From the NCBI RefSeq assembly GCF_000787575.1, contig NW_012236506.1, positions 314,225-378,224 on the forward strand: DNA of 64,000 nucleotides, in the 5' to 3' direction. This DNA is from Acytostelium subglobosum LB1. Its lineage: Eukaryota; Evosea; Eumycetozoa; Acytosteliales; Acytosteliaceae. Position 1 is the first letter of the stretch. Each line of letters begins with the position of its first letter. This document shows, one piece after another, positions 1-62,577 of this stretch. A program made the translations under genes and the position numbers. Below the pieces are notes generated by a model. That model was given only the letters and a program-made list of their open reading frames with translations. It had not been told where the DNA came from and searched no databases.

Positions 1-2297
1 CAAATGGTGTAATCTGGAATTGATTGATTGATGAGTGATTAGTGATTGAGTGAGTGATTGGAATAGTTCCAGTGATCATCCAGATGTACATACATTCTCA
101 TTGATCTTGATGAATATTGATCCAAGTACTTCCAGTAGTTTACACTTGATGTCCACATTCTCCACGCGCTGGAAGTTGTTCATGATTGATAACAGTGTCC
201 TGTCAATATAAGGTGAGAACTCCTCGATAGTGCATACATAGTCGTCAACGTCTATGTTGTGATTGATTGATTGATTGATTAGTCCAGCGCCACACCATCG
301 CGATCAACAACAACAAACCAAACTTACAAGCCTTGAGTGAGTCCCATGCTGTGAGTGAGATGACTAGATCATCGATGCTGGTCAATTCTAGGATTATCTG
401 GACGATGGCCATTCGCATGTTCTCTGGTATCTTTGGTATCCAATAGCTGATCAGCCAGCATATACGTCGTCTGATGATGTTGTATCGCTTGTCCTGCATC
501 TGCAACTCCACCATGAATACGTTGGAGAACAGAGTGTCAAAGTTGACATTGTCGTACAGGTCATAGTAGCCCAGTCCAATGGTCATGTAGCAGGCCTCCT
601 TGAGTAGCAGCTGCTGAGTGGTCTGTGGCTGGCCGGGCGCCATCGCGCCACTGGTGACGTAGAGCAACATCTCGTGCACAGTCTTGACGCCAACCTCGTG
701 GAAGTGTCTCATCAGCAGGATGAACAAAGAGTACGCGACCGGCTTGATCTCGTAGGCGTTGGACTCTGCGCCATTGTCAATGTCAAGAATGAACTCCTCA
801 GGGTCGTCAGTCCACTGCAACAGCTCCTCCTCAGTCAGTATCAGATAGTTGGACACCAATGCCTTGAGCAGCTCAGACAATAGTGTGGCCGAGAAGAACT
901 GATGGACGTACTGCTGCGCCCTGTGGGTGGGAGTGATGACGTCGGGCAGTGTCTGTGCGGCCAGCTTGGAGATGGGCTCTGACTCGTCGTCATCCTCAAA
1001 CATCATCTCTGTCTGATAGCTGTGACAATCGACCACTGACTTTAGGAATGTGAGTGATTGGACCAACGACTTCTTGAAGAAAGACCTCTTTGCATTGTCG
1101 TCCATGGCATGCGGGTTGTACCGCAGTATCTGCTGATTGAAGTAGTTCAAAGATGATGGAAGGAACTCAATGAATGACAATGGATGTTGAAGCTGTGCCT
1201 GAGTGATCGTCTGTGTGTGAGGTTGGATAATGTTAGTTTATGGGACGGAATGATTCCAAGCCTTGATTGATTGAATGATCATAGTGCATACCTTTTGAGA
1301 GACAAGTATGTATTGATCGAGAAGGCCAGGGAATGAGTTGTCTGATATGCTGATGTTGTTTGAGTCTGGTGTTTGTGATACTGTTGATGAGGTTGATGAT
1401 GCGGAGGCGGAGGCGAGGAGTGTCGACCTCAGTGAATGTAGACGCGACAGTGTGTTGAAGAGGTAGTTGAAGTGCTTGGTGATCTCAGAGCTCTCTTGAT
1501 ACTCTGTATGTCCATATTGAATGATTCGTCGCATGATCTTGGCCGCCATCAACAACTGCTCAAGTGAGCTGAGATGTTGCTGTAGCGTAGCCTCGATGTT
1601 GGTGTCATTGCCAGGCTGTGCCTGTGCTTGTGTCAGTGCATGTTCGAGCACCTGAGCCAGTAGATTGGTGCCATTCTCAATGTACGGACTGAAGAACTTG
1701 AACAGCTGATTGGAGATGGCGTAGAGTGCTTGGCGCTCGGGCAAGAAGCATCGCGAGGCCAACTCGTTCAATATATGTTTGATCGTAATCATCGCACTCT
1801 TCTTGTTATCATCGTTGCCCTGCTCCAATAGTGTAAACATCGATTGAAACAATGTTGGCCATTCAGTTGGATAATCAATACGTGCCACATGTGATATAAT
1901 GATTGATAAATGAATGGATATCTTTCCACTCTGACCAAGATGATTGAACTTTGTCAACAATGTCAACAACATCTCTCGATATAGTTGTTTATCCTGTGTT
2001 GATATTATACTACTACACTCATTCATTCATTAGTATCATTGATTGATTGAGCGAGGGGATGTACACATACGCCTTCTTTCGCCATACTGATGTGATGTTA
2101 TTCTTTAGGATGATTGTTGCTACGTATTGTACAAGTTGTGGAACGGTTTGATCGTTGAGCAACTGCATTAGGGCACCTGTGAACTGTGACACTTCACTTA
2201 ACTTCTTGATCTGTGTCTCTGCATTCCTCAACACATCTACATTAGGTGACAGTACATTGCAAAGCAATGTATACAACTGTTCCCTATTGATATCCAT
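1..2297 (-). CDS. ipo11: importin-11-like karyopherin, 3' end outside window
   Basis: Nuclear transport receptor of the importin-beta family, which carries cargo through nuclear pores under Ran control. Exons read 2297-2071, 2017-1292, 1210-328, 251-94 and 13-1 (continuing off the window); each junction is GT-AG and keeps frame. The N-terminus has the importin-N pattern: paired helices with AETQIKKL, then a stretch matching the ARIDYPTEWPTL motif where importin-11 has ARLDCPRQWPEL. The rest is helical HEAT-like sequence with a Ser-rich loop. About 670 residues are visible of a family length near 1000. The start is the first Met, in an AT-rich leader. Family identity rests on the N-terminal motif; another importin (7 or 8) is less likely. 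Confidence 0.85.
59..71. repeat. TGGAA-N3-TTCCA palindrome in an importin-11 intron
   Basis: Inverted 5-bp arms TGGAA and TTCCA around TAG. It lies in the intron at 14-93. One of a set seen across the window. Confidence 0.6.
1246..1258. repeat. near-palindrome GGAA-TGA-TTCC in an importin-11 intron
   Basis: Core arms are perfect and the outer base mismatches (C versus A). The same intron (1211-1291) holds, at 1229-1245, a 17-nt block also found in a CARMIL-GAP intron at 25330-25346. Confidence 0.55.
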
Positions 2298-2659
2298 TAT
2301 ATATAATAACTATTAATATACTATGATATGTTGTAGAGTTGTAGTTGTCTAAGTTTATTTGAATGATTAGTCGACCTCACATTCTTCGTTTGATTGAGTG
2401 ATTTTTGATCAAAATAAAAGCCCGGGCCTATTTCAAAAGCTGTAAATGGCAATGAACCAGGTGATCCATGTCATTGTGATGTGAGACATACAAAAGCGAA
2501 AGAAAAAAAAGAGTCTCGTTTTGCTTTTGAACGAGTCCACTAACTGCACTACCAACCACACTCACACACACGATACTCATACTTCAATTCAATTACACTC
2601 TCATTCCCTACAGTTATAACCGTCACAACAACATATATATAATATACACATAATATAAA
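2298..2659. promoter_or_regulatory. shared upstream region of importin-11 and the SLIRP-like gene
   Basis: The two genes point away from each other, so both promoters should lie in these 362 bases. AT-rich runs flank both start codons. I see no distinct element beyond this and no convincing ORF. Confidence 0.4.
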
Positions 2660-3311
2660 ATGAACAGAATCTTCGTTGCTCGTCTCCCATGGTCTGTCTG
2701 CAAGAGTATGTCAGATCAACAACATCGAATGTCTGGCTGGCGCAACAACAGTCAACAACATCGTCATCATCATTGGACAGGTGAATGAATGACATTCAGG
2801 CCATTCATTCATTCAATCATTCAGTTTGAATCGCATGCATTGCAATCATGTTCTCGAGTTGAATGAATGGTGAAGATGTTGATGTTGTTGGATGACCAGG
2901 CCAGCCAGCCGCGACAGACACTCATGTGATCAATCACAGTATCGACAAAGTACTAACTCAATCAATCAAACAATCAAACAAACATAGTCACTTTGAGAAA
3001 CCACTTCTCCAAGTTCGGCCCAGTTCAGGATGGTTACATCGTCTTGGACCGTATTACTAGAAGATCAAAGGGTTACGGATTCGTCACCTTTGCCAACAAC
3101 GAGTCTGCTCAGAACGCCGTTGCCGCCACACACGAGATCGAGGGAAGACAGCTGGTCGTCTCCATCGCCGTTGGTATGTATCATCAATCCTACTACATAG
3201 CGTCATCAATCAGACACTAACAAACCAATCAATCAATCAATCAATCAAACATTAACAGACAAGAGACAAGGAGAGCAAGCTCCCTCCACTCAGGACAACG
3301 TTGATGCTTAA
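2660..3311 (+). CDS. single-RRM protein, SLIRP-like
   Basis: Small RNA-binding protein of 94 residues, essentially one RRM. Exons are 2660-2705, 2988-3173 and 3259-3311. The joined N-terminus reads MNRIFVARLPW..., with an RNP2-like FVARLPW, then LRNHFSKFG, and RNP1 as KGYGFVTF. The layout matches SLIRP, a mitochondrial mRNA-stability factor (FVRRIPW, LKEHFAQFG), though a nuclear RRM protein of similar size cannot be excluded; no clear mitochondrial presequence is visible. Intron 1 is long for this window (282 nt), carries TACTAAC at 2951-2957, and intron 2 carries sense-strand CAAT repeats. The short acidic tail ends in NVDA. Confidence 0.75.
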
Positions 3312-3581
3312 ATGACGAATAAAAGTACGACAACATATATTCTTTAATCAAACAAGCATTATTCCCAAGGATCAATGGGATTCAATCATTCATTCGCGAA
3401 CGATGGCTTCATTCAGTCTCATCCACTTCTGGTCAGGGAGTCAGTCCCTTTCACACAAAGAGAGTTGAATGATTCATTGAGTTACTGTACATGACATGGC
3501 CTGAGGTAGGTTGAATGACCATCCTTCAACCTTTGCCATTGATATATTATTATAGCCACTACTGGCTAGCAGCCAACAATG

Positions 3582-4009
3582 CTACAGCTTCTGGAATGGG
3601 TTGCCACTTGGTGGCAAGTCAGCATCTTTCTCCACCTTGCCTGTTATGACCTATGTTGGAAGAGGTCAGTAAGAGTGATTAAAGTAGCATAACGAGTCTG
3701 AGATCTTGACATACTCCTTCTTGTATCTTCATTAGACAATCTCGTCCGACCATCAACATCTGTATCAGTGTTTCAGGATTCGTCTCATACTTTGAGTTCT
3801 CATAGTCTCTTCTTACACTCTCTCTTAGCACTACCTTCCTGTTGTTATCGTGTGTAAGTAGGTTGCTCTGTTGTGTCCTCTGATGAGAATGATTGATTTG
3901 AATGACATTACCATGGTATACCCTGTTCGTTTGGGTGATTGAATGTTCGAAGTGTCCTCATTATATCACGATACAGCCTGACCGCCTCCCTACTACCTGT
4001 TGCGACCAT
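3582..4009 (-). CDS. LYR-motif (Complex1_LYR) small protein
   Basis: About 105 residues from three short exons: 4009-3912, 3865-3715 and 3650-3582. It starts MVATGSREAVRLYRDIMR, so the LYR tripeptide sits in the first helix and is followed by charged residues and a downstream aromatic, as in LYRM proteins that work with mitochondrial acyl carrier protein in respiratory-complex or Fe-S assembly. It ends PPSGNPFQKL. The first intron is only about 46 nt with donor GTAATG, so its exact edges are the weakest part; the second (3651-3714) is a clean GTATGT...TAG. Which LYRM subfamily is unclear. It faces the AAA gene across 160 bases. Confidence 0.65.
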
Positions 4010-4170
4010 CCTTGTATCTATATGTGTATATGTTTGTAAACGAATGTGCTCAGAAGTGAAAGACACTTTACATCTTTCGTTTCATTCTTCAATCCCATAA
4101 TCAAACATCAAAGTTGTGTAACAAAGACAAGACGAAGAGATAAGATACAAGTTCAATCAATCAAGATAAG
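4010..4170. promoter_or_regulatory. divergent promoter, LYR gene and AAA gene
   Basis: A 160-base gap between two outward-facing start codons, with A-rich leader (CAATCAATCAAGATAAG) just before the AAA start. Confidence 0.35.
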
Positions 4171-5191
4171 ATGAGCGAACAACAACAACAACAGCAACAA
4201 AGAAAGGAGTCATCCTTAAGGACACACATCAATGGTGTATCACTGGATGATCAGAGATTCAGAGGAATAGATCCTGTTTTAAGAGATAGAGTACATGATG
4301 AGCTGATGTATACAGGTACAAAGTCATCATGGGAACATATAGTTGGATTGGATCAAGTTAAGCAACATCTAAAGGAGATCATAACATTGCCTATTCTAAT
4401 ACCAAGTCTCAAAAGTCCATCTGATCCCAAGTGCGTCTTATTGTTTGGACCACCTGGCACTGGCAGGAACATGATAGTACAAGCACTTGCCAACGATATC
4501 AAAGCCACTATATTCAACATATCAAGGAAGACCCTGGAGTCAGGTGATTGGGTATGTTGTACTTGGAGATGGAGACAAAGATAGACATGTCCTCACTCAC
4601 TCAATCTCAATCATACATTCATTCAATCAGGGATGCAATGGATCGACACTGATACGCGCAGTGTTTGAGGTCGCCAGCTGCTATTCACCGGTGATTGTTC
4701 ATGTTGATGATTTGGAGATGATCATGTCGAGTGGATTGAATAATGAGGAGATGAGACGTAATAAGACAGAGCTAATGGTACAATTGGATTCATTGAAGGA
4801 TAGAAATGAACAACAGGATGATTGGATGTTGGTCATTGGTACAACCAATCGTCCACAAGACGTGTGTTCATCATCACTCAAGAGATTTGTCCAGAAGCTA
4901 TATGTCCCGCTACCAGAATCAGAAGATCGTTATAAACTATTCCAACGACTATTGCCAGAGGATCACGAACTCGACGAGAATGATGCCGAGGAATTGGTCA
5001 AGATTACCGAGGGATACTCATGCACCGAGTTGGATAGCCTTTGCGTCGAGGCATTGATGCTACCGACTCCCAACACAGGTGTTACCATGGAGCACTTCAA
5101 ACAGGCATTGATCAGAGTGAGGCCATGTGTCAACGCAGCCCAACTTAAGTCATACGAGGCCCTGGATCAACAGTATAATAATTACTTTTAA
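4171..5191 (+). CDS. fidgetin-type AAA protein with degenerate ATPase motifs
   Basis: 313 residues; exons 4171-4551 and 4631-5191. Order: short Gln-rich start, linker helix, a W-x-HIVGLD motif typical of katanin/spastin/fidgetin AAA proteins, the AAA large subdomain, then the small subdomain and C-terminal helix. Active members sever microtubules. Key residues are changed. Walker A reads GPPGTGRN, with Arg99 for the invariant Lys and Asn100 for Thr. Walker B reads VIVHVDDL, with Asp154 for the catalytic Glu. The pore-loop region is shortened to DWGCNG. Sensor-1 TTNRP is kept, and the arginine-finger region SSLKRF is partly kept. I infer a weak or pseudo-ATPase. The long N-terminal MIT or linker region of spastin and katanin is missing. 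Confidence 0.8.
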
Positions 5192-6583: not shown

Positions 6584-6671
6584 AGACGTTGACTGGATGG
6601 ATGGTTGGATGTATATATTATAGTACTATCCTATTTATTATTGGCATAGTCAATGGCCTGTCTCCATCACT

Positions 6672-19526: not shown

Positions 19527-21294
19527 ATGAAGATCCAATTGGCTTTGTTATTAGTAACTCTGGTTGCAATTTATGCTCAGATTGAACCATCATGTCATTA
19601 CCTAAGTATGTTTTAAATATTCATAAGTTTGAATGTTTGGAATAGTTCCATGTTCACTCACTAACTAATATTATTGCTGGATATAGATGTTAACGCAGCT
19701 AGGATTGACCCAACTTACTNNATGAGGGTACAGGTGGTCACTCGATAACATTCGGTGATGCCAATATACCGGGTGGAAATACGATCTGGGACTTTTACCA
19801 AGATCGCGCAACAATTTTGAATGATGGAGAGTTGGTGTCATTGTCTGGCACTTTGGTTCCACCAGGTCACACATGGCCTTACATGGAGGCCAAGCTTGTC
19901 CTCCGTCGCGCAAAGGGTTCATTTATGCCAAAACAAGAGTTGAAGCCAAGCGCCTACGTTCCATACGGCCCAGTTGACCCACAACTCTGGACCTACTACA
20001 CACTCGAGTCATCCACCATTGAGTGCTTTGGAGGTGAGATCGATGGAATGACCATCGAACTATCTGAACATATGGACATGCCCATGCAAGTTGGCATTGG
20101 TGCCAGCGGAAAGAACGTTGTCAATGGATTGTCGTCATGGTACAACTTCAAGTTCATGAAGAATGGTCAGGTCGTCTACACTTCGGACCAGGTCGTCGAT
20201 ATCAACGTGGACATTGACTGCTCAGATTGTGAATATGACCGCTACCACGCCAAGGCTGCTGCAGCTCAATCAATCTGGATCAATGCCGAAGACTTGACTC
20301 CATTCGGTGGCTACAACTCCTGGGACTTCATTGACAACAGGGGTGAGGTTTCACTCAACCCAGACTACTCAATCACTGTCTCTGGCATCTTTGGATCAAC
20401 TACCAACGACACAATCCCCATCATGAACTGCAACTTTGAGTTCATCCCAGACATTCAAACATTCCGTTCAATGAAGTTGGAGTTGGCCGAGCAGGTCTAC
20501 TTCCCCACTGGCCCAGTTGATGTTGGCACCTGGTTCTACTACCGTGTCAACCCAGCCAAGTCCAGCTGCATCATGTACAATGGATACTTGGTGACAATCG
20601 TCGATGACAAGAACATGCCAGCTCAAGTTGGCTATGGTGCCAATGGTAAGAACCAGAACTTTGGTCTCTCAGTTTGGATGAGCTTCAAGGCTACTGCACC
20701 CAATGGAACTGTTACCTTCCTCTCATCAGATGTTATGGATATCAACATTGACATGGAGTGCATCAACATCCCACCTCCCACCATCCCACCAACTCAACCA
20801 CCCACAGCTCCACCAACTACTCCACCAACTCAGCCACCCACAGCTCCACCAACAGCTCCACCAACTCAGCCACCAACTCAGCCACCAANNNNNNNNNNNN
20901 NNNNNNNNNNNNNNNNNNNNNNNNNNNNNNNNNNNNNNNNNNNNNNNNNNNNNNNNNNNNNNNNNNNNNNNNNNNNNNNNNNNNNNNNCCACCAACTCAG
21001 CCACCAACCCAGCCACCAACCCAACCACCTACCGCTCCACCAACCATTGCACCAACTAAGAAGCCATGCAACACTCCAGCTCCACCAACAGTTGCCCCAA
21101 CTCATCCACCTACAGTAGCTCCAACACATCCACCAACAATGCCACCAACAGTTGCCCCAACTCATCCACCTACAGTAGCCCCAACTCATCCACCTACAAT
21201 TCCACCAACTCATCCACCAACAATTGTCCAAACTCATCCACCTACAACAACTGCACCAACTACCAAGCCATGCAAAACAAAAGTAATTAAATAA
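19527..21294 (+). CDS. secreted protein with duplicated domain and Pro/Thr stalk
   Basis: Exon 1 19527-19605 encodes a signal peptide (MKIQLALLLVTLVAIYAQ); exon 2 starts at 19687. Two copies of a domain of about 150-160 residues follow. Shared landmarks are NxxWDF near the start, then GPVDxxxWxYY, MPxQVGxGAxGKN, GLSxW and VxDINxDxxC. The C-terminal stalk is built from PPTQPPT, PPTAPPT and VAPTHPPT units, likely O-glycosylated, ending PCKTKVIK with no anchor signal. I infer an extracellular matrix or sheath protein; the domain family is unknown to me. Oddities are assembly-linked: two Ns at 19720 coincide with a frame break, and the 100-N gap in the stalk changes frame, so the true repeat length is unknown. 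Confidence 0.75.
19638..19650. repeat. TGGAA-N3-TTCCA palindrome in intron of the secreted-protein gene
   Basis: Perfect 5-bp arms around TAG, inside the intron at 19606-19686. Confidence 0.6.
20761..21280 (+). repeat. Pro/Thr-coding tandem repeat interrupted by assembly gap
   Basis: Tandem CCACCAACTCAGCCACCA-type units coding PPTQPP/PPTAPP and, after the gap, VAPTHPPT units. The 100 Ns at 20889-20988 are a nominal gap placed where the repeat could not be assembled. Confidence 0.85.
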
Positions 21295-23099: not shown

Positions 23100-26000
23100 T
23101 CATTCACTGATGTTGACTGGCACTGGGATCTCCCATTCATCTTGGAATAGGGATGATACGGTTCGAGAAGACTCGCTCCAGCCTTCAGAAGCGGGCGAGT
23201 TTGATGATGAGTTGCCTCGCGCACGAGGTACACTTGGCGAGTAGGATAGTCGATTCATTCTGGAGAATCGTTTGCCTCGCAGTGTCATATTGCCATCCAT
23301 TGAAGGTGAGCCAGGTGGTGATGTCGACGACGGCGTGCCGCCACTGCTAAACACTTGACTGTTGTTGCCATTGATACTGTTTGGTGATAGCTGTGATGCT
23401 GCCACACCCTCGTTTGTGGTCGATGTGGCTAAGGTTACACTGAGACGGGGCTTGGCAGCTGGCGCGTTCTCTGGATCAAAGATGTCAAAGTAGTGCTGGA
23501 TGAGGAATGCGTTGATGGGCAACAGGTCTGAGGAGAACGATCGGAAGAGTGTGGGGGCCCAACATATCGAAAGGTTCTCGGCTGACATCATGTTCTCATC
23601 CTTTTCCAACGCGATCAAGTGCAGAAGGTAAAACAACTTCCTTACCATCTTGGCCTCGAGTGGCGTCAACAGTTCAACAATATCACGGTAGCCAGCTATC
23701 TTCTCATCTAGTGCCGTCTGTCTTGATGCCAGGAAGAAGCGATCGTGAATGTTCTCGGCAAAGAGGGGCACTGGAAGCTCACGGAAGTAGCCCTTCAATA
23801 CACCGGCTACCGTGTCTGGCTCCACTCCCTCCAAGTCGACATCCTCACCCGCTTCAAATCGTGCCTTGATCTGTTTGAGCATGTTGGCGCTGGCACATGT
23901 CCTGAAGATGCCAAGCACCTTGGTGCCCTTGGCCAACAACTGTGTGATTGACTTGGCGACGATGGGTGGCATTTCGATGGAACCGTTGATTGTTCCTCCC
24001 CTCTGTGGCACGAATGAGTCACTCTGTTGTAGTTGACGTCCTGGGTAGAGTGGTCCTCGAACGCCTGTGGCCACCTTCTTTGTGATGTCGATTGTTGCTG
24101 GTGGCTTTGGACTGGCCGCGGCCGGCTTGATGAATGAGCTGGAGTTTGATCCTGTGCGGACATGAAGTGTGCTGCCACTCTGTCGCATGGGCACTGGTGG
24201 CGCGGGAGATGACGCGCCCGTGCGCTCAGGTGGCGGTGGAACATATTTGAATTGATGAGCGACGTTAGAGTTGATCAAGTTCTGTATCTCGATCAGAGCC
24301 TTGTGTGTCTTGTCCTGACCAGTGGTGGACTTGTCGCCAAGAAGTATGGCGTTGATATCCAACAACGGCATGTTGAGCAATGTGACCGACTTGTTGTTTC
24401 GCTTCATTGATTGTTTGATGATCTTGAGAGCGTCCATTGAGAAGTCATTGCCATCGATCTTGATCTGTTTGAGTGTCTGATTCTTCCAGAGTATCTTGGC
24501 CAGCGCCATCGCACCAGAGTCTCCAATACCATTGCCACTGATGTCCAGCTTGACCAACGATTCGTTCTTGAGAAGCAATAGAACGAATGGAACAAGGTCG
24601 TTCTTGAGTCCCCTCGTGCCACTGGTACATGCGATGGACAATGACTCGATCGTCACATTGTCCTCGATTAGGTTGCAGAGTGCCTCAACAGCACGAACAC
24701 GCAGCTTTGATCGTGATGTCTTGAAGTTATTGTCGATTGCTAGATGTCTGAGGTTGGTGTTTGGATACATGACCTCGCACAGCCTGATGATGCCCGAGTC
24801 GCCCAGGTCGTTATCAGACAAGTCGACGTTGGCCGCCTTGATCAACGATGTGGCGGGTCCAAACAACTGTTTCAAATCATGTTCGCTAAAGTACAATCGT
24901 GCCAGATTGATGCTAGTGAGCGCTGGCAGCTGCTTGAGGAAGCTGAACAAATCGACAATGGTCTCCTTGCTCGATGATGGCTTGTTGCCTGAGAAGTCTA
25001 GCACCTTGAGTGAGTTGTTGCCGCTCTTGAGCTCTTTGTATACTGGTCCGGTGTTGGACATTTGTAATGTGTGTAGTGCGGTTGCCTTGGAGAGGAAGCG
25101 ACATAGTGCTCCACTTCCTGCAAGTTCCAACTTATTGTTGTTAATCGACAAGAAGTTCAGAGTTGACACAGATGGCGATGCCAACAAAGAGTGGAAAAAT
25201 GCCTCCATTGGCTTGCCAGCACTCGATGTATTCTCCACATTGATATAAGTCAGTCCACTTGGCAATGCCTGGATTGTTGTGCCAAGCGCCACTATGCCCT
25301 TGCTCTGTGTAGTCGACATTGGAGGGTAGAATGTTAGTTTATGGGATGGAAGTGGCATGATTCCAGGTCCACCCAACACATACCTCGAGGATGTTGTTGC
25401 TGAGATTGATGTGTTGTAACTTGATGGTCTTGTTCTCGGATAGACCGGCGAGCATTGCCATGATTGACTCTTTGGATGACTGTATGTTGTTGAGGTGAAG
25501 CTTTTGAAGTGCCGAGCTGACACGCACTGTCTCTGTAAGTTGATTCATCTCCTCGGTGGACAACTTGAAGTTGCTGGACACCAATGATGTGAAGTAATTG
25601 TTGTAGGCCAATGACATTATCAAAGCTCGAACATCATATGGTGTGCATTGGTACACCTCATTCAAGTTGAACTCCTTCACATTGTTGCATGGGTACAAGT
25701 TCTCAATGTCCCAGATCACGCTCAACAATGGTGCAATGCCCATAAAGTCGCAGACCGACTTGTATGTAATAGCGAATGATCCACATGGAGGTGATGGTCC
25801 TGTCGAGTCCTTGTTTACTTTGTTGTGATCGATTGATCGAGTGTAAGTAAGTATGATGTGATTGATTGATTGAGTGTCCGGACGAGTGTCCGGATACTTA
25901 CTGTTGGCCTGGAATATTGGCAATATCCTGGACTCGGGTAGGATGGTGAAGATCAATGCCTTGCCGATGGTGAGTGCCGGGAATGTGTTGACGAATGAGT

Positions 26001-26439
26001 AATGTAGACTCTTTAGGATGTTGTCAGTGTCGGCTGTGGTGAACTTGAGCGTGTCGTTGTTCTTGAACCGGATTGCCATCTCTTGGCATTTTGGACTGCT
26101 TATCTCTACAATGTCCAGATAATGATGATCTTCGTCCAGTTTTCCATTTGGTTTGAATATGAACATCCTATTCATTCCAAGGATCAATGTCAATTCCTCA
26201 GTCGGCTTCTTTGCATCCTTCTTTATCTTATCATTGATTGGTACTATCTTGGNCAATGACCTTTCCCTCCTCTTTCCTCTGTGACAATACATTCTCTATA
26301 ATCTCTGTTTGATTGATTGATTGATTGATTGATTGATGAGGGTTAGGACTTGGGTTGGTTGGGGTTGGTTGGGATGATTCCAAATGATCCAGATCATACT
26401 CTTTTCATTTGGAGATAGTATAACTGGTTGGCTTGACAT
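23100..26439 (-). CDS. CARMIL-like PH + LRR protein with RhoGAP domain (CARMIL-GAP)
   Basis: About 1026 residues; exons 26439-26400, 26304-25902, 25817-25384 and 25304-23100. The true start is a short first exon (MSSQPVILSPNEK). Order: CARMIL-type PH domain (about 25-125); leucine-rich repeats (about 190-530) with repeated LxxLxLSxNxL-type units; a Pro/Ser linker; a RhoGAP domain (about 640-820) with the arginine-finger motif GIFRTCAS and later ENLSICWAPTLFR; and a Ser-rich tail. CARMIL proteins control actin capping at the leading edge; the GAP domain would switch off a Rac/Rho GTPase. A CARMIL-GAP of this plan is, to my knowledge, known from Dictyostelium. The N at 26253 sits beside one surplus base that breaks the frame near residue 32, an assembly defect. 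Confidence 0.88.
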
Positions 26440-28305: not shown

Positions 28306-29091
28306 TCTTGTAGATGTCTAGAATGTATGTATATGTATATTATAATAAATGTTAACTACAAATGATATATAAAGTAGTAGAGCAAGTTGAAAACTGTTGT
28401 TGTTGTTGATGATGTTAATAAGGGTAATAATACAAATAAATAATAAACTTGTTGTATATGTATAAATTATATGTATATAAATGTATGTTGGATGTATTTG
28501 TAATCAATCACGATTGAATTAATGAGATGATGACTTTGTCGTTGTTTGAATTAGTTTTGTGTGTGTATGATTACATTGTTGTGTATGTGTGGGCAAAATA
28601 ATTTGAAAAACTCCAACTGCCCTGGGCAGAATCACAAGAACAACAATAACAGCTGGCAGACCATCGAATGTTGTCTAAAACCAAGTTCCAACACGACAAG
28701 GAATGAATTAAATTCAAGTAAAATGACTACATAATCCTATTCCAAAAGAATGAGTGATAGAGTGAGGGAGATAAAAGTAATATTATCCTCAATTCATTGT
28801 TAATATATCTTGTAATTGGAATCATCCCAACATTTTATTTATGATAAATACTCTATCATCAATGAACATGTTAACTTTTTCTCAAGATTGATTCGTCCAC
28901 AATTAAGATATTTTTATGATCAGTTTCCCATCAAAACACTCAAAAATATCTAATCTGAAGGGTTTGATTGGTGTAAATAGTAGATTAAACTGGGACTCAA
29001 TGATTCATACCAACAATATACTTACTTGTACAAGATTAAATATTATTATTATCAAACATACAACTTAGAGATAAAGAAAGAAGATAAATAG
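28306..29091. promoter_or_regulatory. divergent upstream region, SNARE and beta-helix genes
   Basis: AT-rich near both starts. A perfect inverted repeat CTGCCC-T-GGGCAG lies at 28617-28629, and a degenerate copy of the window-wide palindrome (TGGAATCATCCCA) at 28817-28829. No gene seen. Confidence 0.4.
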
Positions 29092-30547: not shown

Positions 30548-30560
30548 TGGAATAATTCCA
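30548..30560. repeat. TGGAA-N3-TTCCA palindrome in 3' flank of the beta-helix gene
   Basis: Fully palindromic over 15 bases (TTGGAATAATTCCAA) when one flanking base on each side is counted; seven bases after the stop codon, followed by CAATCAATC. Confidence 0.65.
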
Positions 30561-30687: not shown

Positions 30688-32349
30688 TCATTCATGTTCA
30701 ACAATATTATCCAATAATATATCTTGATCTCCAGATTTATGATCAGATGTAGTGTTTGATGGTGGTTCAGACGATGATGATGTTTGAGGTGGACCAAACT
30801 TGCTTGTTAATATAATCTTGATGAATGTTATAAAGAATAACAATGATAGTATTGCCAATAATATTGTAAAGACAATGTTTGACCAACGGAATGAAACATG
30901 ATCCATGATGGCCGAGCCCAAGATGGGTCCAACAAAGAATCCAATGCAGAAGCAACAATTGAACAATGATGCAATCTTTCCATTGTGTTCATTATACTGA
31001 TGTGGATCGATGGTCAAAGTCAACACAGCCATCAGAGGTGTGTTGGTCATAATCAGACCCGCTGACAATATGAACACAATTACAAAGGTCTCCCAAAGGT
31101 GGCTAGCAAATGTGATGAATGGGTATACGAATATGACTGTGACCATGCCGAGAAGTACAGTGCGGAAGTGTCCAAGTACCTTGTCTGCCAGCTTGCCAGA
31201 GAGTGGCGCTATAAATACTGCTGGCAAGGTCATTGTGGCAAACATTAGACTGATCACCGTGGATGATGAGTTGTATGTGCGCTTGAGGTATAGCGGGATG
31301 GTTGGTTCGAGCGCGGCAAAGCATGCATATTGTATGATGATGGTCAGACACAGGACTATGACCTTGAAGTTGAACGCCATTTTGAAGAATGATTGTCCTC
31401 GAGCGGCCTCCTTGGCCGCAGCCTTGGCACCATCCTTGTCCTGTGCCTTGAGACTCTTTTCAACATGTGCCTCCTTTCTTTGTTTGTGTCGCTTGATGGC
31501 GTCGTCGGATACGAACACCAGTCGGATGAATAGGTCGAATGCAGTGATGCCACATGCTACTAGGAAGGGCACACGATAGCCAAAGTGTTCATAAAGTATG
31601 CCTCCAATGAGTGGGCCAACAGGGGCACCGATGGCATTGCCACCGACCACTGATCCAATGACTGTACCTAGTCTCTCTGGAGGGTAGATGTCGGCAATGA
31701 GCGCAAGACCGACGACCCAGGACACAGCAGAGCTGACACCTTGAGCAAACCTTGCGACAAACAGTATCCACAACGACTCGCCATATGCAAACATCAGTGT
31801 TGAAGCTATCAGTGAGATGAGGCCAATGAGGAATGGTGTCTTGCGTCCAATCTTGTCAGAGAGTGATCCAAACACAGGTGTAGATATAATGGAGCCGGCT
31901 GAGAACATGGCAAAGAGCACACCTGTCACCGACTCACTTTGATGATATTTCTCCTCCATCACACCTGGCAGGATGGGCAGGACGAGGCCATAGCAGACCA
32001 TGTCACAGAACAATGCCACCGAGATGGATACCAGAACTGACACCTTGCTATTCCTTACTCGGAAGAATGTGCGAAGTAAGGGGTTTGAGGGCAGTCGGAA
32101 GTCGTCGAAATCATCGTCATCGTCATCGTTGGCTCCATCTTCCAGTGTGGATGTGGCTGCCTCCAAGTCGATGGGGGTTGTGGCGGTGGTTGTTGTGTTG
32201 GCAGAGTCAGGTGATGATTCATTGTCATCTTCATATCCACCTGATGCAACAGCAGTGTCTGGTTCCAGTATAGCACCACTGACCAATCTACTATCCAGTT
32301 CGTCGTCGTCGTCGTTGATATTCTGATGCTGATACTTTGTTTGATCCAT
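30688..32349 (-). CDS. MFS transporter, vesicular amine transporter-like (DHA1 type)
   Basis: 553 residues, no intron. A long acidic cytosolic N-terminus (Asp/Glu and Thr runs) precedes twelve predicted TM helices. Signature motif A reads GSLSDKIGRKTP between TM2 and TM3, a second copy GKLADKVLG lies between TM8 and TM9, and there are antiporter-type Gly/Pro patterns (GGNAIGAPVGPLIGG). The central loop is Lys/Ala-rich. Closest in plan to VMAT/SLC18 and bacterial drug:H+ antiporters; the substrate is not predictable from sequence. It shares a 487-base upstream region with the GFA-fold gene. Confidence 0.82.
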   Translation of the reverse strand: MDQTKYQHQNINDDDDELDSRLVSGAILEPDTAVASGGYEDDNESSPDSANTTTTATTPIDLEAATSTLEDGANDDDDDDFDDFRLPSNPLLRTFFRVRNSKVSVLVSISVALFCDMVCYGLVLPILPGVMEEKYHQSESVTGVLFAMFSAGSIISTPVFGSLSDKIGRKTPFLIGLISLIASTLMFAYGESLWILFVARFAQGVSSAVSWVVGLALIADIYPPERLGTVIGSVVGGNAIGAPVGPLIGGILYEHFGYRVPFLVACGITAFDLFIRLVFVSDDAIKRHKQRKEAHVEKSLKAQDKDGAKAAAKEAARGQSFFKMAFNFKVIVLCLTIIIQYACFAALEPTIPLYLKRTYNSSSTVISLMFATMTLPAVFIAPLSGKLADKVLGHFRTVLLGMVTVIFVYPFITFASHLWETFVIVFILSAGLIMTNTPLMAVLTLTIDPHQYNEHNGKIASLFNCCFCIGFFVGPILGSAIMDHVSFRWSNIVFTILLAILSLLFFITFIKIILTSKFGPPQTSSSSEPPSNTTSDHKSGDQDILLDNIVEHE

Positions 32350-49574: not shown

Positions 49575-52500
49575 ATGTATATAACAAGACAAATATATAA
49601 TATCTTTACATTAATATTATTATCATTATTATTTATTAGTTCCAGCGACTGGATCACACAAGTGACCTCGATATGTCCAGACAACTTAAAATATTATGAA
49701 GATATATCTATGTGCCGGGGACGCGACTCTGGCCTCACAACAATCAAACTCACTCAGGTATGGCATCCACTCAATCAATCAATCACTGGAACTATTCCAC
49801 TCACTCATCTACTCAATCAAACAATTATAGTGTTTATATAGTGGATACTCAGTATATTACATGAGAGGATTGGTAAAGGATAAATATGATAATATATTAT
49901 TGAACTCACTTCAGTTATTATCGAATATCAATCCTTGGAATAATACTTGTCCAACTATTGATGGTACAGTGGGCATGGAATCATCAAGTAATATCGAATT
50001 GAATATTATTGAATATAATTACCTGGCTTATACTCAGTGCCAGGGATCGAAACGACGGAGGATGGGTGCATTCATGACCAATGACACTGACCCCGCTGGC
50101 GTTGTGGATGGCTGCGACTCGTCCTCCACATCACTGTTCGACTCGTCCAGCTATCCATTCGCCGATGTCATCCCGATTGACAAGGCGTGTGTCTCGACCT
50201 TTGCTTGCCGTGGCGCGTCATTCTCATTCCAGGTGCTCATGAACACCGCCTGCAACAATGTCTCATTCAACTGCAAGTACTTCAACGGCGACAAGTCGGA
50301 CAATTACACGTTGGTGTTCAATCAGACGATGGACGTCGGTCCACTGCGAGCTTACTCCTCAAAGTGCACAGTGTTGTGCAAGCATGGATATTGTGATGAT
50401 GTGACCTGCAAATGTGACCAAGGATACAAAGGCAATGATTGTAGTCAATGTGATATAGGATACGAGGCGCCAAGCAATGGATCATCATTGTGTCAAGACA
50501 TTAATGAATGTGTGCGAGACACTTCCATCCAATGCCAAGAGCATTCCACATGTTTCAACACGCCTGGCAGCTATCAATGTCGATGTATAGACGGTTTCGA
50601 GATGAGTGGATCAGATTGCATCGGTAAGTCCCATCATGTACCACCCTTGTGGCCCTTGACTAACACTCAATCAATCATTCAATCAATCAAGATATCAATG
50701 AATGCGAGAAGAATAAGGATATCTGTGGAACCTCATTGTGTGAGAATACTGTAGGATCATATGTATGCCAATGTCGACCAGGCTACACCTACATCTCAAG
50801 TAATAATAGTTGTTTGGATATTGATGAATGTGAGACTGGAACATCAGTATGTGGTGAAGGATTCGTTTGTAAGAATATCGATGGATCATATGCATGTGTA
50901 TGCTCACATGACTCGATGGCCGCAGAATGCCAATCATTCCCTACTGTATCAAGAGTGCAGAGCATTGGACATGGACAAGTGTTGATAGAGGGAACTGGAT
51001 CAAACTTGACAGGATCACCTTACAGCGTATATATTGGAGAGGAGCAATGTACCAATGTTCGATATCCATCAGACATATCCTTACAATGTACATTGCAGCC
51101 AGGCAACTACTTTGATCTACCAGTCCTTTTCAAGATAAACAATGTATCAAAGATTGTTGGAACATTCAAAGGTATAATACCTTGATAATTCAATCAATCA
51201 ATCATCGTACCTAACGTATTCAATCAATCTATTATTTAGGTCCATTCATAGAGTCAGTTATTTCCGCACCAACTGATGGAGGATTGATACAGGTCAATGT
51301 GACTGGACTTGAGGCAACAGATGGAAAGAATATTACTATGGTGATTGGAGAGTATGATTGCAATGTTACAGTGATCAATACAAACTTGGTCGGTTGTCAA
51401 GTTCCTCAAGGATGGGCCACACCACTTTCCATGGTCTTGACATCGAATGGACAGTATTCAACAGGAAACAAACAGTTTGAATACTTGCCTCCATCAATAT
51501 CATTCCTATCAAGTCTCCCGCAAAGAGGTGGTAATCTTACAATTGATGGATCAAGCTTTGGTTCGAATCAATCGAGTATCACAGTTGACATTGGAGGTCA
51601 ACCATGTATCAGTGTCATCATCCTAAAGGATCATCAATCAATCAAATGTATAGCCAGTCCATCCACCAACATCTCTGACCTTGTTTCAGTATCCGTGTCT
51701 GGACGTCCAGTTGCTGATCCAATGATACTACTCTATGAACAAGGTATGTTGTCTTGAGGTACCGCGTGGTCTGTCACAGTGCATACTAACTCATATACAG
51801 AGTACAAGTGTGACAACGAGACATGTAGCAATAATGGATATTGTATATTTGGTGTGTGCAATTGTAATACCAACTGGACTGGTCATTATTGTAATGAGAC
51901 GTATTCCTCATCTGAGGGCGACAACAACAATGGTTGGTTAGTGATACCTTCCAACTCGACTCCAACATCCACCATCACAAGTGATTCAACAACATCCTAC
52001 GAGATCAATATATGTGAGATCAAGGAACTTGGACCAGACTCGGACCAGCCATTCGTCGACTACGATCTCAAGAACTTTAACTGGACCAAGACCAACATGT
52101 CGTCGACCAATCAGTGGAGATACCAGTTAGTGTTGCCAAACTCTGCCGTGCTGGATGTGTACATCACACAGAGTGCAGACGCCAGTCAGTTCACATTTGG
52201 CAATGTCCAGATGTCCACATCGAGGAACTCACTCAAGTACACGATATCGATCACTGACTGGCCATTCGAGTCCAAGTCCAATCATCTAGAGTTGGTGTTC
52301 CAGAGTGAGACATTCGTCAAAGAGGTGCCCGCAGGATGTCAACAACAGCCTTCTATCACAGAGTATGGTACGAACAACAATGGTAGCAACAGTGGCGCCA
52401 ACAGCAAGACCAACAACAATACCTCACCAGAGCTGCTCTGGTTCAAGACGAGCGATGGTATGTCAACCCTCTTTGCCAGGTTCCTGAACAAGGGCATACT

Positions 52501-55836: not shown

Positions 55837-55890
<54 letters not shown>

Positions 55891-57496
55891 ATTGTTGTTG
55901 ATATTGATAAAGCTCATGATGTTGTTTATAACATTCAAGGGATATGTATATTTGCCCTTGGACACTGTATCCAGGACTCGTCCGAACTCTATGATATCAT
56001 CAGTCTTAATAATTCCCTCTAAAACATAATTGAATATGTCCTTCAGATCATGAATAGCAGCAAAGTTGGCCACTTTGTAAAGTTGGATTGGGTGTGATGA
56101 TTGGTCCATGGTCAGCAACTCAATGATTTTTGATTGAAGATCTTTGAATATGTGTATGAATCGTGGATCCAATGCATACTCGACGATGACCTTGATGGTG
56201 GATACCTCAGCTGAGCGACGTGATAGCTCTTGGCACAGCTCAATATTACCATGAACTTCCAAAGCAGTGACCATCATGTCGATCAACGTCTTGGATGTAA
56301 GTGGATAGTGTTCCATCAATGTTCGTGTCATGGACAAACTAAAGTTTGAGTTTCGAAACTGATTCGAATCGAACAGATGTTGGAAGCGTGACACAAGTTC
56401 CTCAACTCCATAAGGTGACTCCTGCCAATATGACTTCATCTCTTCCATTATGGTCATGACCAATGAAGTGTTATCGCGTGCCAATGCAATACAATATTCC
56501 TCTCTAATTGTGCCCATAAGTCTAGCGAGAAGAATGAGTGCTTCGAGTTAGTGCACCTCGTTCTCATGCATGAATGAATACCTACAGAGTAATGGGAGGA
56601 CTTTGAAGTGGATCATTGAGAGTGGTATTTGTACTCAAGTCTCTAATTTTCTTCGTATAAATGTATCGTCTAGTTCTTGATATCGCACTTAATAACGTGT
56701 CCCTCTCAGATGAATCATCGGTGTACTTGACCAACTCTGACAGCAGCATGCAGTGGCTGATTGGCCTCATTGTGGGAATGAGGAGAAGTGATGGGAAGCT
56801 AGATGCACTGCACATGTGTGTCTGGGCAATAGTGTGAAGCAATTCCTCCGCGCTAGATATCTGCTGAACTCTCTTTAGCAATTGGATTGAGGCCCTACTG
56901 TAGAAGTAGAAAACAGTGTATTCCTGCATAAACATGGCATTGTCGTCAATGATGGGTGATCCACTATCCTGGAGTTTGTTTAGAAGCTTAGTGTGATGCA
57001 TATAGATGTTGTTGATCACATCTCTCATATGATCAACTTGATCCAAGGTGATTCGATTCGCTATGTTCTCGGTGGTAACACATTGAGGTGCATAACTGTG
57101 GACAATCTTGAATACATCAATAAGGATCTTGAGTTTGATCAAATAGGGCTTCTCCATGGTGATGAATTCATTGATGATTAATCTCTTTTTGTCCTCGTCG
57201 GAGAGTTGTGAGCCTCCAATAAAGTCGAAAGAGGATCTCATATGATCAAACCTATTTGCAAAGTGTTGTTTATACTTCATAACATCACCAACTTGGGCAC
57301 ATTGCCAAAGTGATACAACATCACTCCCTTTGACCGTGTGTTTGTTGAGCAACCATCTCCAACCAGTCTCTGCAGAGTACTCCACATTGTTCCTATTCAA
57401 TATCGTATTCACCCAACCAAACACATTCTCTCTAGTGATCGTATTCCAAACAAGGACTTGCCTCACCAGTGTGTCTATGTCGAACCTCACCTCCAT
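54328..57496 (-). CDS. RhoGEF (DH-like) protein with ankyrin-like C-terminal region and poly-Asn
   Basis: 1034 residues; exons 57496-56586 and 56521-54328 (intron 64 nt, GTAGGT...CTAG, with CACTAAC). Residues about 100-300 look like a DH domain: INEFITMEKPYLIKLKILIDVF (first conserved block, shown in part), and FPSLLLIPTMRPISHCMLLSELVKYT as the third block. No PH domain follows. The remaining 730 residues are helical repeats of irregular length, like the divergent ankyrin-type regions of many dictyostelid proteins, interrupted by about 20 Asn. I infer an exchange factor for a Rho/Rac GTPase, moderate confidence; the Arg/Lys contacts needed for activity are not obvious. Confidence 0.6.
55838..55890 (-). 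repeat. TTG (AAC/CAA) microsatellite coding poly-Asn
   Basis: About 17 uninterrupted TTG units on the plus strand, read as AAC/Asn on the coding strand; extended on both sides by interrupted units. Uninterrupted codons suggest recent length change. Confidence 0.85.
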
Positions 57497-57640
57497 CTCT
57501 ATCTATTATTATCTATTATCTCTTGTATGTTATAATGTACGAATGAATGAATGAATGAATGATTGAATGATGAACAAATGATTGATCACAAACAAATAAA
57601 TATCTTGTGGGTGTCGTCTGCTTTTTTGGGATCACTTGAT

Positions 57641-59284
57641 TTAGTTTGACTTGATTGTTTGAGTTTGTTGTTTGAGTGGATCATGCTGGACGATGAAGCG
57701 AACAAGTATCCAGATGTTGACCGAGAAGAATAGTATACCAGCGAGCCAGATGTTGTAGAATGTCTGATGGCCAAGGAATTCGAGTTTGAAGGCAGACACC
57801 AACCACAACGCCTGTGATCCAATCCACAGCAGGAACATAATGATACCGCCGATAATGGTGATCTTGGTCGTGGGCAGCACCAGTGGCAGCAGCGAGTAGT
57901 ACCATATAAAGTACTGCACCGTGCACACCTTGTTGAACGCCACAAACGTGATGGTCTCGAGCAGTATGCAGAACTCCAAGTCGTTGTAGTACACAAAGCT
58001 GATGGCCAACAACAGCACGACCTGTGGCAAGAACGAAGCGAGGGCGACGCCGACCGACTCCAGGGACATTCCTGCGCGCATCGACAAGTCAGCCACCGAC
58101 TCTACAATCGGGGTGTTGAGGTAGATCTGATAGAAGTACACGGAGAAGTTGTGTCGGTTGTCCGCGCGTACAACATGGTATATGTATGTTTCATACAAGA
58201 AGATGTATCCGTAGCTGTTCCAGTGAGTGAGTGAGTGAGTTAGTATCAATCAATCACATGACATGATCAATTACATGAGATAATAACTTACATCTGATAC
58301 ATTATAAAGGTCAATGGGAGGAATGTGAAGAAGGCACTGACAACAAAGAATGTGAGACGATTGCGATTGAAGATGTTGCGTAACAATGATCCAAACGATG
58401 ACTTGTTAAGTGAGTTGTACTTGTGTGCCGCCGTCTCATAATAATGCTGATCGATATAGAGATACATCGGAATAGAGTATATGATTGGATATATCTTAAA
58501 GTGTACTGATAGTCCAAAACTATGTTTGATTGAAGGTTAGTATGTGATTGATTGATTGATTGAGTGAGTGAGTGAGTGAGTGAGTGGACGAGACGAGACA
58601 TACAAGATGGATGATAGGATGAGCTGCTTCTTGAAGAGGAAGTAGAGAGATAGTAGGACCATGGCACCAATGACAGACTCGGCATTACCACGTGTCGACA
58701 CGTTGATGACGAATGGGTTCATGATCCATGCTGTAGTGCATGCATAGAGCATCGATGGCTTGATGTTTGGGAATCGTAGAATGACAATATGCTTGAGCAA
58801 GTATGCTATGATCATATCACATACTACAAAGAGTACCTTGCCAAATGCCTTATGTACCAATATGTTGGGTATTAATAAGTATGACCTATTCGTTTGTTAG
58901 TTAGTTATGAGTCATTCACTCAATAAATCATTCATTGTATGAATGATACATACAATAGAGGAGTGTATCTATATGTTGAACGATCATATGGACTGAGTCC
59001 TTCGACAACGAATCTCGATGCATCTGTGTAAACTTCATAGTCAATGTCTGTATACTTGACGAGCACTGTTGTCATTGTCATCATGTTAGTTAGTATGTTT
59101 GATTGATTGATTGATGTCAATATATGTACATACTATTAGCATCCTGCCACTCTGAGAACACGATCAATAGACATCTAACAACACAACCAACCAAGAATGT
59201 GTACTTTGTTAGATTGTATCCATTATATATAAAGTCATTACTATTAGTCTGTGACTGTTTAGTTCTCTGTTTGCTTGTTGCCAT
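57641..59284 (-). CDS. pigm: GPI mannosyltransferase I catalytic subunit (PIG-M)
   Basis: 448 residues; exons 59284-59134, 59065-58954, 58885-58604, 58519-58292 and 58214-57641. The start MATSKQRTK is chosen because it immediately precedes the first TM helix; an upstream in-frame Met adds unrelated sequence. The lumenal motif [18 protein letters not shown] is the catalytic DxD-bearing signature of PIG-M, followed by [22 protein letters not shown] and [14 protein letters not shown]. About ten TM helices. It adds the first mannose to the GPI anchor in the ER. All four introns are 68-84 nt and hold TACTAAC or ACTAAC. Confidence 0.93.
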
Positions 59285-59544
59285 GTTGGTTAAGTTAAGG
59301 TACTTGACTATAACGTGATGAAGTAAGTAAGTATGACTTAGGTGACTCGAGAGATTGACCTTCAGTCTCCCCCACATTGGTGATCTTCAAACACATTCAT
59401 TCCCACACAACAACAACACTTTGTTGGTCTTCCAATGACTCACACGAATGACTCCATTCTGATATATCTACTCCATTCATTCATTCATTCATCTAATCAT
59501 TCAATCATTATATATATATAGATAGATAATAATAATAATATAAT
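59285..59544. promoter_or_regulatory. divergent promoter, PIG-M and unnamed membrane protein
   Basis: 260 bases between outward-facing starts; ends with TATATATATAGATAGATAATAATAATA before the plus-strand start. Confidence 0.35.
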
Positions 59545-60776
59545 ATGCCTTCATCACTTGGAGTATTAAGGTTGGTGACCTTCACTTCCATTATTGCTCT
59601 AGTACTTCAAACAATGTTGGTATTCAATCAATCAATGTAGCCAGACCTTGGGATATACTAACCTTCAGAACATTGTTATAGTATCTTTAACTTTATATCA
59701 GATATTGATTATTGTGCCAGAGAAAGGGTATATGATAAATCATGGCATAGACATATCTATCTTATAGCATCAACAACCTTTGCAGCTGCATGCTTCATCC
59801 TAATAGTCATGTGGAGACCATTCAAATTAACTGTTGGATTGACTCCAGTACAGCAATACTTCAGATCATGCTTCTATGCAATGTATATAGTATTATGGTA
59901 TACGGCCACTTATTGTGTATGCGTATTTGGCAAGGAGATACTTAATGATAAGATGTGTAATTCTGAGAAGCATAACTCGGTCAGTGGTCACTTCCTCTTC
60001 CACACATTCTTTGCCGTATCAATACCATTCCTATTCTTCTCCATTGGAAGACTATCATACAAAGACTCATTACTTCACCAACTACAACAACAACAACAAC
60101 CTCAACCAAATCAGACCAGTCACCAACTAGAGGCTCAACGTCAAAGGAATGAGTTTGTTTATATTAAGAGGTATGTATTGATGAACATGGATAACGGCCA
60201 CTCAATGAGCATCCATCACTAACTCATTCTTTCATTCTTTCGATCATTCACAATGATAGCCTGTTTACATCAAGCAAATTGGTACCATTGATTGTTGTTT
60301 GTTATATTGCCTACTTGGTAACGTCAGTCATCAACATGCAGATGACCTGGTCACATGGATATCACTCACCAAGACAGATATCTTATGGATCAATCCTATC
60401 CCTACTCTCACTCTCAATCCTCTTGGCCACAACTACACAGGGTATGTTATGGATCGCGCCAATCGATCAATCGATCATTCAAACTAACACTTTGGACAAA
60501 CTAGTGAGCCGTAGGTCACTTGGTGTTTTGACATTGATGGCGGCGATGACAGCTCATTGGATGCTGTCAATTGCATTGATCTATTGGTCTGGCTTTCGTT
60601 TCCCTTTATCCAGAACAGGAATCATCGTTGGAATCATCTTCTACATCTTCATGGCTTACTTAGCCCTGAGTCATCTAGTCAAACTAACTGCGAGCAGTGG
60701 TATCATGCTGCCACAACCCAGTCATAGATCCAGAGTCGACCAAGCAAAGAGGAGGAGAAAGCACAAGAAGGAATGA
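59545..60776 (+). CDS. multi-pass membrane protein, unrecognised
   Basis: About 344-365 residues. Exon 1 starts at 59545 (MPSSLGVLRLVTFTS..., TM1); exon 2 59682-60170; exon 3 from 60260 to 60776. The exon 1 donor is uncertain: GTATTC at 59620 is the best-looking site but breaks frame, while GTAGCC at 59637 keeps frame with a 45-nt intron. A further GTATGT...ACTAAC...TAG segment at 60442-60504 is 63 nt, in frame and stop-free, so it may be spliced or kept. Seven or eight hydrophobic segments, a Gln-rich cytosolic loop and a basic C-terminus (KRRRKHKKE). Lengths and topology resemble a seven-TM family, but I find no signature. Confidence 0.6.
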
Positions 60777-60889
60777 AGATTGAATACATCATGGATATAT
60801 ATATTATTCAAACATGTACAGTTTTATATATTATTTATATATTAATGGATGGACCTGGACTTGGACATCCAAGGGTAGTGTTGCCCACG

Positions 60890-62577
60890 CTACTCGAGCA
60901 TCCTGATGTAGTTGAATGGAATGGTACCTCTGGCGCCATTCAACTCGGCGTTAAGCCACTCGCCAGTGGTGGTGTGGAGCACTAGAATGTCGCCTCTCTT
61001 GAAGGACAGCTCGGAGGTGTCCTGGCCAACAAAGTCAAAGAGTGCCTCGGCCTGGGGCAGTGATTTGCCGGCTGTTGCCGCGGCAACAGGTGTCTTTGGC
61101 ATTGGCAACGCTCTTCCTGCATTCGGATTATTGAATTGTTGTGGCTGCTTGGTGGCGCTGGCGCTGGAGAATGCTGCCGTACCATATACACTGCTACCAG
61201 GTGCAGGCTTGATCACGCGAAGTCCAGTATTGTTTCCTGGTTGCTGCTGTTGTTGCTGAGGATTGGTAGTTGTTGTTGTGATGGTAGTCATTGTGGTTGT
61301 TGTTGTGGTCGATGGCTTGGCAAGTGATGGTGCTCCACTATAAGGTGATGGCGTGGCGGCCATTGGCTGTGGCTGATATTGTTGTTGTGGTTGTGGTTGT
61401 GGCTGTGGCGGCTGGTATGACTGCATTTGTGGACTTGGTGACTTGGACAACATGACTGGCGAGGCGTCCAGTGGGGCAGGTGGTTGCTGGCTTGCCGAGG
61501 TCATTTGTGGACTGTAGGATGGCGAAGAGGTTGGCGTGGACGTGCCCACAGTGGCCGAGCGACTGCGAGTGGATGGCGAGTATTCGTTCGTCTTGCTGTT
61601 GAAGACGGCGGATGATCGAACGTTTGTTGAGATGGCCGATTGGTCGACCGGTGTGATGACCCAAGCATGATTGATTGAGTCGTACTCGTTGATCTGACTG
61701 GCGATGTGATGGCCCTTGCCATAGGCCACAGAGTTGTTGGCGTATAATCTCGCGCTAGTATTGATCAACGCGGCCAATGCTGGATTGAACACGTTCTGGC
61801 GATCGTTGAACAGGATTGGCATGTCATGCATGAGTTCGTCACTCAACTCTAGATAGCCCTCCTTTGTACGTGTGTGCTTGGACTCTGTGATTGCCAACGA
61901 TGTTGCATCCTTGCCCTTGTTAGCCTTGATTGAATAGTCGCGGAAGTACCTGTCCATATCAAGTCTGCGCACGTCCAATTCCTTCAAACGCTCCTCAATC
62001 TCTCTAAACTGTGATATATATTGTCTCAATGGATCATGGCAGTATACCTCCAAGTACTCTTGCTACGTTCATTCATTCATCAGTATCAAAGTTAGTATCA
62101 TTCACTTGTTCAATCATGTGATTGATCGATCACACATACCATCTCCATTCTTTGTCTTTCCAACTCCCTCTGGCACTCTTGGTATGCCAGACTCTGAGGG
62201 TCCTTCTCATCGAATGACAAGATATCATGAGCCATCTCATTCTGAAGGATTGATATATCTGTTGGATGTGTGAGTGAGTGAGTGTGTGAGTGATTGGAAT
62301 CATTCCAAGTGTGAGTGTGTATGTGTGATCGACCACATTAAGGTCTACGACACAAAGACTACAACATACCCTTGATGATATCTTGATACTTTGCAATGTT
62401 CTTATTGATCCTCTTTATCAACTTGAATAGAGTGAACAACTTATCACTCTCTGCTTGAATCTTGGTGTCTACTGTTGTCTCTGCAGCACCAACCTTGGCC
62501 AACACTCTATGCTTGGCTCTTGCGAATCCAGTCTTTAACTGTGACCATGTATCTCCACTTCCCTTCTGTTGTGACAT
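60890..62577 (-). CDS. BAR-domain and SH3 protein (amphiphysin/Rvs167-like)
   Basis: 499 residues; exons 62577-62370, 62258-62140 and 62062-60890. The first 240 residues form an N-BAR-like helical domain: GFARAKHRVLAKVGAAE start, FTLFKLIKRINKNIAKYQ, then YISQFREIEERLKELD and PALAALINTSARLY. A long Ser/Pro/Gln/Thr-rich linker with Pro-x-x-Pro motifs follows. The C-terminal SH3 domain (about 445-499) has AEALFDFVGQDTSELSF and GARGTIPFNYIRMLE. It would sense or shape membrane curvature in endocytosis and recruit dynamin-like or actin partners. Same plan as yeast Rvs167. Confidence 0.87.
62295..62307. repeat. TGGAA-N3-TTCCA palindrome in intron of the BAR-SH3 gene
   Basis: Palindromic arms extended to TTGGAA/TTCCAA around TCA, in the intron at 62259-62369. 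Confidence 0.6.

Follow-up and report, generated by a model that had tools for sequence, protein, structure and literature searches.

What does a short palindrome do when it recurs, with the same spacing, in the introns and flanks of unrelated genes? The question is raised by a 64,000-nucleotide stretch of the dictyostelid Acytostelium subglobosum LB1 (contig NW_012236506.1, positions 314,225 to 378,224; hereafter the window), in which the 13-bp motif TGGAA-N3-TTCCA had been noticed from the letters of the sequence. The original prediction offered three options: a binding site for a dimeric transcription factor, an RNA hairpin acting in splicing, or a mark of spread intron sequence. We regard it as moderately probable that the motif is a selected site for a putative dimeric DNA-binding protein, concentrated in introns.

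Excess and placement of the palindrome

All five exact copies predicted for the window were found in their places, and the view that chance would hardly produce them was borne out, as 100 dinucleotide shuffles of the window gave a mean of 0.15 copies and a maximum of 1. When up to one mismatch was allowed, 10 places were found, the exact ones included (shuffles: mean 3.31, maximum 8). The whole genome set (30,731,823 bases in 56 contigs, A+T near 56%) contained 1554 exact copies compared with 41 of the reversed pattern, which served as the genome-wide control instead of a shuffle; the density check that had been suggested thus gave a large excess.

We then looked at spacing and centre in an annotated stretch of 252 kb of contig 30 (C30:234225-486698). 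The halves TGGAA and TTCCA occurred 13 times at a spacing of 3 bp and 0 to 2 times at each other spacing from 0 to 15. When all 5-base dyads with at least 6 copies were ranked over the same spacings, the most over-represented were TGGAA at spacing 3 and its overlapping core GGAAT-N1-ATTCC, most other high-ranked dyads being AT-rich; within introns, GGAA-N3-TTCC was the top spaced dyad. The 29 other orderings of the five half-site letters gave at most 2 copies each. The central triplet, which had been thought free, is restricted: 1286 of the 1554 genome copies have a T[C/G]A centre (627) or a CNA or TNG centre (659, that is 316+343), leaving 268 others. In the sense of the gene, the 98 copies linked to a splice donor carried TCA (33), TGA (18), CTA (15), CCA (12), TAG (10) or other triplets (10); the dominant centres are TCA/TGA, CTA/TAG and CCA/TGG. 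The strand preference of the centre was 60:30 in the donor-linked copies and 39:8 in another sample; the value predicted from intron base composition, 2.67:1, lies in between.

To place the copies relative to genes, we used the predictions of our own simple hidden-Markov gene finder, which was trained on the sequence of the same 252 kb. It assigned 163,751 bases to exons, 17,386 (7%) to introns and 71,337 to intergenic DNA, with 187 introns of median length 77 nucleotides. Eleven of the 13 exact copies fell in introns, one in a predicted exon and one between genes, which makes the motif 45-fold denser in introns than between genes, on a single intergenic copy. A further sample of 74 sites in 64 loci, 21 regions of which were picked for the two common centre kinds, gave 52 intronic, 12 intergenic and 10 exonic sites; scaled by the bases that each class occupies in the 252 kb, the motif is 18-fold denser in introns than between genes and 49-fold denser than in exons. 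Exon density is thus low, as the proposed comparison required of a non-random element, and exons, where none had been noticed, do hold some copies. When changes were allowed at positions 1, 4, 10 and 13 together with a permitted centre, 18 of 25 matches were intronic, 5 exonic and 2 intergenic, and the reversed control gave 1 in total.

The exonic calls are of several kinds. Three (L003, L065 and L077) lie in FNIP-repeat proteins recognised by Pfam and read GTIPSS or GMIPAS at the site, a fourth (L063) is a shifted near-copy of the L003 gene, four fall on other coding words, of which three have the centres AGG, GAG and AGG, and two (L001 and L048) resemble introns that the gene finder missed within a chloride-channel gene. 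The FNIP words at L003:1501, L065:401 and L077:401 spell the exact palindrome through codon choice; because of such coding words, some of the copies counted over the genome are exonic and unrelated. The segments L001 (contig C2) and L048 (C17), like L003 (C10) and L063 (C19), are near-identical, the first of each pair being on a small contig. Both pairs appear to be recent duplications or uncollapsed contigs, and the L063 copy seems to be frame-shifted.

The intronic position was also seen independently of the gene finder. Among genome matches, a GTATGT donor stood 5-35 nucleotides upstream of the motif 379 times and downstream 27 times. This bias places the motif between the donor and, where present, the branch-like CTAAC, which was found within the last 50 nucleotides of 73 of the 187 introns and at 15-51 nucleotides from the 3' end of 74. 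About 4% of introns (8/187 in the 252 kb) contain the motif, throughout gene bodies and sometimes two or three times; three of these eight hold two copies (0.39 expected, P 0.002). Ten of the predicted proteins spliced across motif introns were inspected, and all of them, plus one more, contained Pfam domains. The hosts include an arginine methyltransferase, Coq4, a phospholipid-translocating ATPase and calponin-homology, SPX/EXS, 5'-nucleotidase and BAR-domain proteins, and no common theme was found among the ten host proteins inspected. When the 12 intergenic sites and the window copy at 30548 were scored as introns, intron-like borders were mostly absent, with no clear case save possibly L027. 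Three longer stretches around intergenic sites comprised one without a modelled gene, one with the site about 760 bp from a gene and one between divergent genes.

The copies in the window are listed below. The division into six intronic and two flanking copies agrees with the gene model (59, 1246, 19638, 26370, 49787 and 62295 intronic; 28817 and 30548 intergenic). The three near-copies named at the outset are real; two of the five near-copies, at 25353-25365 and 30970-30982, had been overlooked.

59-71, minus strand: exact palindrome, TGGAACTATTCCA in gene sense; the predicted intron (14-93, minus) belongs to a gene that encodes an importin-beta N-terminal domain.
1246-1258, minus strand: one-mismatch copy, sense TGGAATCATTCCG, in a 93-nucleotide predicted intron (minus).
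19638-19650, plus strand: exact palindrome TGGAATAGTTCCA, in predicted intron 19606-19733 (plus).
25353-25365, minus strand: one-mismatch copy, sense TGGAATCATGCCA, changed at tolerated position 10, in a 79-nucleotide predicted intron.
26370-26382, minus strand: one-mismatch copy, sense TGGAATCATCCCA, changed at tolerated position 10, in a 104-nucleotide predicted intron.
28817-28829, plus strand: one-mismatch copy TGGAATCATCCCA, in the gap between a predicted pair of divergent genes.
30548-30560, plus strand: exact palindrome TGGAATAATTCCA, 6 bp past a predicted coding end, between genes predicted to converge.
30970-30982: one-mismatch copy inside the long open reading frame 30688-32349, with the mismatch at a G position invariant elsewhere.
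49787-49799, plus strand: exact palindrome TGGAACTATTCCA, in predicted intron 49758-49841 (plus) of a weak gene model (30-residue protein).
62295-62307, minus strand: exact palindrome, TGGAATGATTCCA in gene sense; the predicted intron (62259-62369, minus) belongs to a gene for a BAR-domain protein.

By eye, a 73-nucleotide intron at 49758-49830 links two open frames around the 49787 copy, and this intron may end at 49830. The window also contains 100 N at 20889-20988, inside a Pro/Thr-rich repeat coding region, and single or double N at 19720, 21347 and 26253.

A putative protein-binding site in intron DNA

Looking at the near-copies of the motif, we found them unevenly spread over the positions, and 6 of the 7 intronic one-mismatch copies differed at positions that are tolerated genome-wide (P 0.019), which suggests purifying selection. 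On its own, the half TGGAA is no denser in introns (1.2 to 1.4 per kb) than between genes (1.5). Lone TTCCA is enriched in motif introns only, at 3.1 per kb; other introns have 0.6 and intergenic DNA 1.5.

Among the options first put forward, the site for a dimeric factor fits best, given a dyad at one spacing, largely independent halves (see below), clusters within single introns and sparser intergenic copies. The half-site would be TGGAAY, with the A at position 4 partly replaceable, and two such halves would face each other round one central base. A putative sequence-specific protein, probably a dimer, would bind the double-stranded site, and selection would keep this site mainly between the 5' splice site and the branch-point-like sequence. 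Speculatively, the intron-bound protein might slow or mark RNA polymerase II and so act in elongation control or in co-transcriptional splicing. As to function, we infer that a transcriptional role inside the gene body is the most likely, an intronic enhancer or silencer being nearly as likely. A role in elongation or splicing would account for copies that lie within genes, occur all along them and are sparse between them; a classical enhancer does so less well. The further idea that a dedicated dimer marks several per cent of introns as DNA, and thereby couples polymerase passage to splicing through a DNA code read before the RNA, seems to us rather improbable.

The closest competitor is a conventional transcription-factor site through which the intron would enhance or silence its host gene; we consider it unlikely, if a serious contender. 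It shares the DNA-level evidence, accommodates the homotypic clusters and agrees with a count in the 252 kb, where 6 of the 8 motif introns were first introns, compared with 81 of 179 others. In the larger set, however, the hosts were not closer to gene starts: a start lay within 400 bp of 12/55 motif introns and 59/171 other introns, a difference in the opposite direction (P 0.095, the 11 copies of the 252 kb being counted singly). The low intergenic density does not favour an enhancer either.

RNA pairing and intron copying

We then considered a hairpin in the pre-mRNA, with a stem of five pairs and a loop of three bases, that would regulate splicing or be bound by a protein. The concentration in introns, the placement between donor and branch-like site, the restricted loop and a predicted fold of -2.3 kcal/mol for three exact forms all agree with such a structure. 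If pairing mattered, sense variants with a G·U pair should outlast those with an A·C mismatch. Counted over the genome, the pairing-keeping variants TGGGAYYATTCCA numbered 164 and the pairing-breaking variants TGGAAYYATCCCA 259; after intron composition and strand mixture were taken into account, G·U was tolerated about 0.4 to 1 times as well as A·C. The G·U variants are thus not favoured.

Double changes at facing positions were then compared with their controls, pairing being tallied among the matches listed. At positions 4/10, 130+120 matches were found compared with 7+9 in the control, and 35 of 72 were paired where 28.1 are expected if the halves are independent (P 0.047), a small excess that a hairpin would explain. 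At 1/13 (62+60 matches, control 14+10) no compensation was seen, with 19/71 paired and 24.5 expected; leaving out 20 matches centred on CCA, possibly FNIP coding words, gave 15/51 against 17.2. Positions 5/9 (133+132, or 265, compared with 25+27, or 52, for the reversed pattern) likewise gave 28/75 paired with 26.0 expected. The commonest centre of these 5/9 doubles is CAA (26/75 among the matches listed), a triplet found in 4 of 100 CNA motif copies, and because it is so rare in the motif we read them mostly as background. Double changes at 3/11 were no higher than the control (60+55, or 115, compared with 88+72, or 160). The more stable G-C paired form (-4.7 kcal/mol) is rare, roughly as frequent as independent halves would make it (some 34 copies expected; a hand extrapolation from the matches listed gives some 45). 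With compensation slight at one pair of positions and absent at two, and with copies existing between genes too, a hairpin is in our judgement decidedly improbable. From these sequence comparisons we conclude that the constraint acts on double-stranded DNA, in two largely independent halves.

The sequence around the motif bears on the last option, in which introns spread by an introner-like or other copying process and the motif is their mark. Introns of the 252 kb (C30:234225-486698) and of the loci L024-L083 share the sense-strand tetranucleotide arrays CTCACTCA and ATCAATCA, which are much rarer between genes. This vocabulary is denser in motif introns: CTCACTCA occurs 8.7 times per kb, compared with 3.2 in other introns and 0.15 between genes, and TCAC 39 times compared with 16.5 in other introns. 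In gene sense, the 3' flank of the motif is phase-locked to TCAC repeats. Comparing introns with one another, of which 52 of 231 were motif introns, we found that the 25 best matches comprised 15 between motif introns (67-78% identity), 10 between other introns (74-92%) and none mixed. Motif introns are therefore alike in repeat content, as copying would have it; in contrast, the 20 bases upstream of the motif carry almost no information, so that the original suggestion of spread sequence finds weak support at most. The matches run over repeats, those between motif introns take in the motif itself and favour long introns with several copies, and the best matches overall (82-92%) join introns without it. 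The motif is internal and not terminal. Exon flanks look broadly alike for motif and other introns. The main text of an introner survey (PMC9860276) names neither Acytostelium nor dictyostelids. With intergenic sites mostly lacking intron-like borders and near-copies uneven over positions, intron copying is very doubtful and the least probable of these accounts.

The flanks also suggest a longer site. Where the centre was of the opposite type, TGAT or TGAG preceded the site in 8/30 cases compared with 3/61 (P 0.005, in a test picked after viewing the list). Given this excess, the full site could read TGAK-TGGAAYNRTTCCA-MTCA, and its outer bases would then be required at one end.

Several findings weigh against a selected site for a DNA-binding dimer. 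The density between genes is about 18 to 45 times lower than in introns, although a regulatory DNA site should be common there. The 3' flank is structured and the 5' flank hardly at all, although nothing in a symmetric site calls for such a difference, and shared origin would give the pairings between motif introns too. The small paired excess at 4/10 points the same way, and the variant and double-change counts cover the whole genome, introns plus everything else. A search of the genome for a TEA domain, the sole family in which a binder was sought, gave no match, nor did its controls, and so speaks neither for nor against.

Relation to known systems

The usual place to look for regulatory palindromes is the promoter. 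In the 252 kb studied here, one of the two top spaced dyads is strongly intronic, and the constraint on it is that of DNA and not of RNA structure. If the proposed binding is true, the genome would offer roughly a thousand natural sites in introns (extrapolated from the 63 of 87 sites called intronic) on which to test whether proteins bound to intron DNA affect elongation or splicing, and it would point to a putative dictyostelid protein that binds DNA. The motif was not found described in the titles and abstract openings searched in one open-access library, most subscription papers lying outside it, and a literature search there for intronic motifs in dictyostelids found none; the exact motif strings turned up only in two papers on cattle bacteria, presumably as primers.

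Introners, the intron-generating DNA transposons described in the main text of PMC9860276, resemble the present case in that many introns of one genome share sequence and an inverted repeat; here the repeat differs in being 13 bp long and internal, with no family-wide homology beyond repeats. The triloop hairpins of Roquin decay elements have, like the motif, a five-pair stem and a mostly pyrimidine-starting triloop, but the variation of the motif does not preserve pairing. The MCAT element CATTCC of TEA/TEAD proteins is contained in CATTCCA, which is read on one strand of copies with the centre TCA/TGA or CCA/TGG, although TEA/TEAD sites are usually not this inverted dimer. STAT, Rel/NF-kB and steroid receptors are dimeric transcription factors with palindromic sites. 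None of the dimeric-factor sites known to us matches the spacing and the half-site exactly, the orientation GGAA...TTCC is the reverse of that of STAT, and a concentration in introns in the middle of genes would be unusual for them. Altogether, what the motif shares with the sites of STAT, Rel and steroid receptors is inverted half-sites at one spacing, independent halves and clustering.

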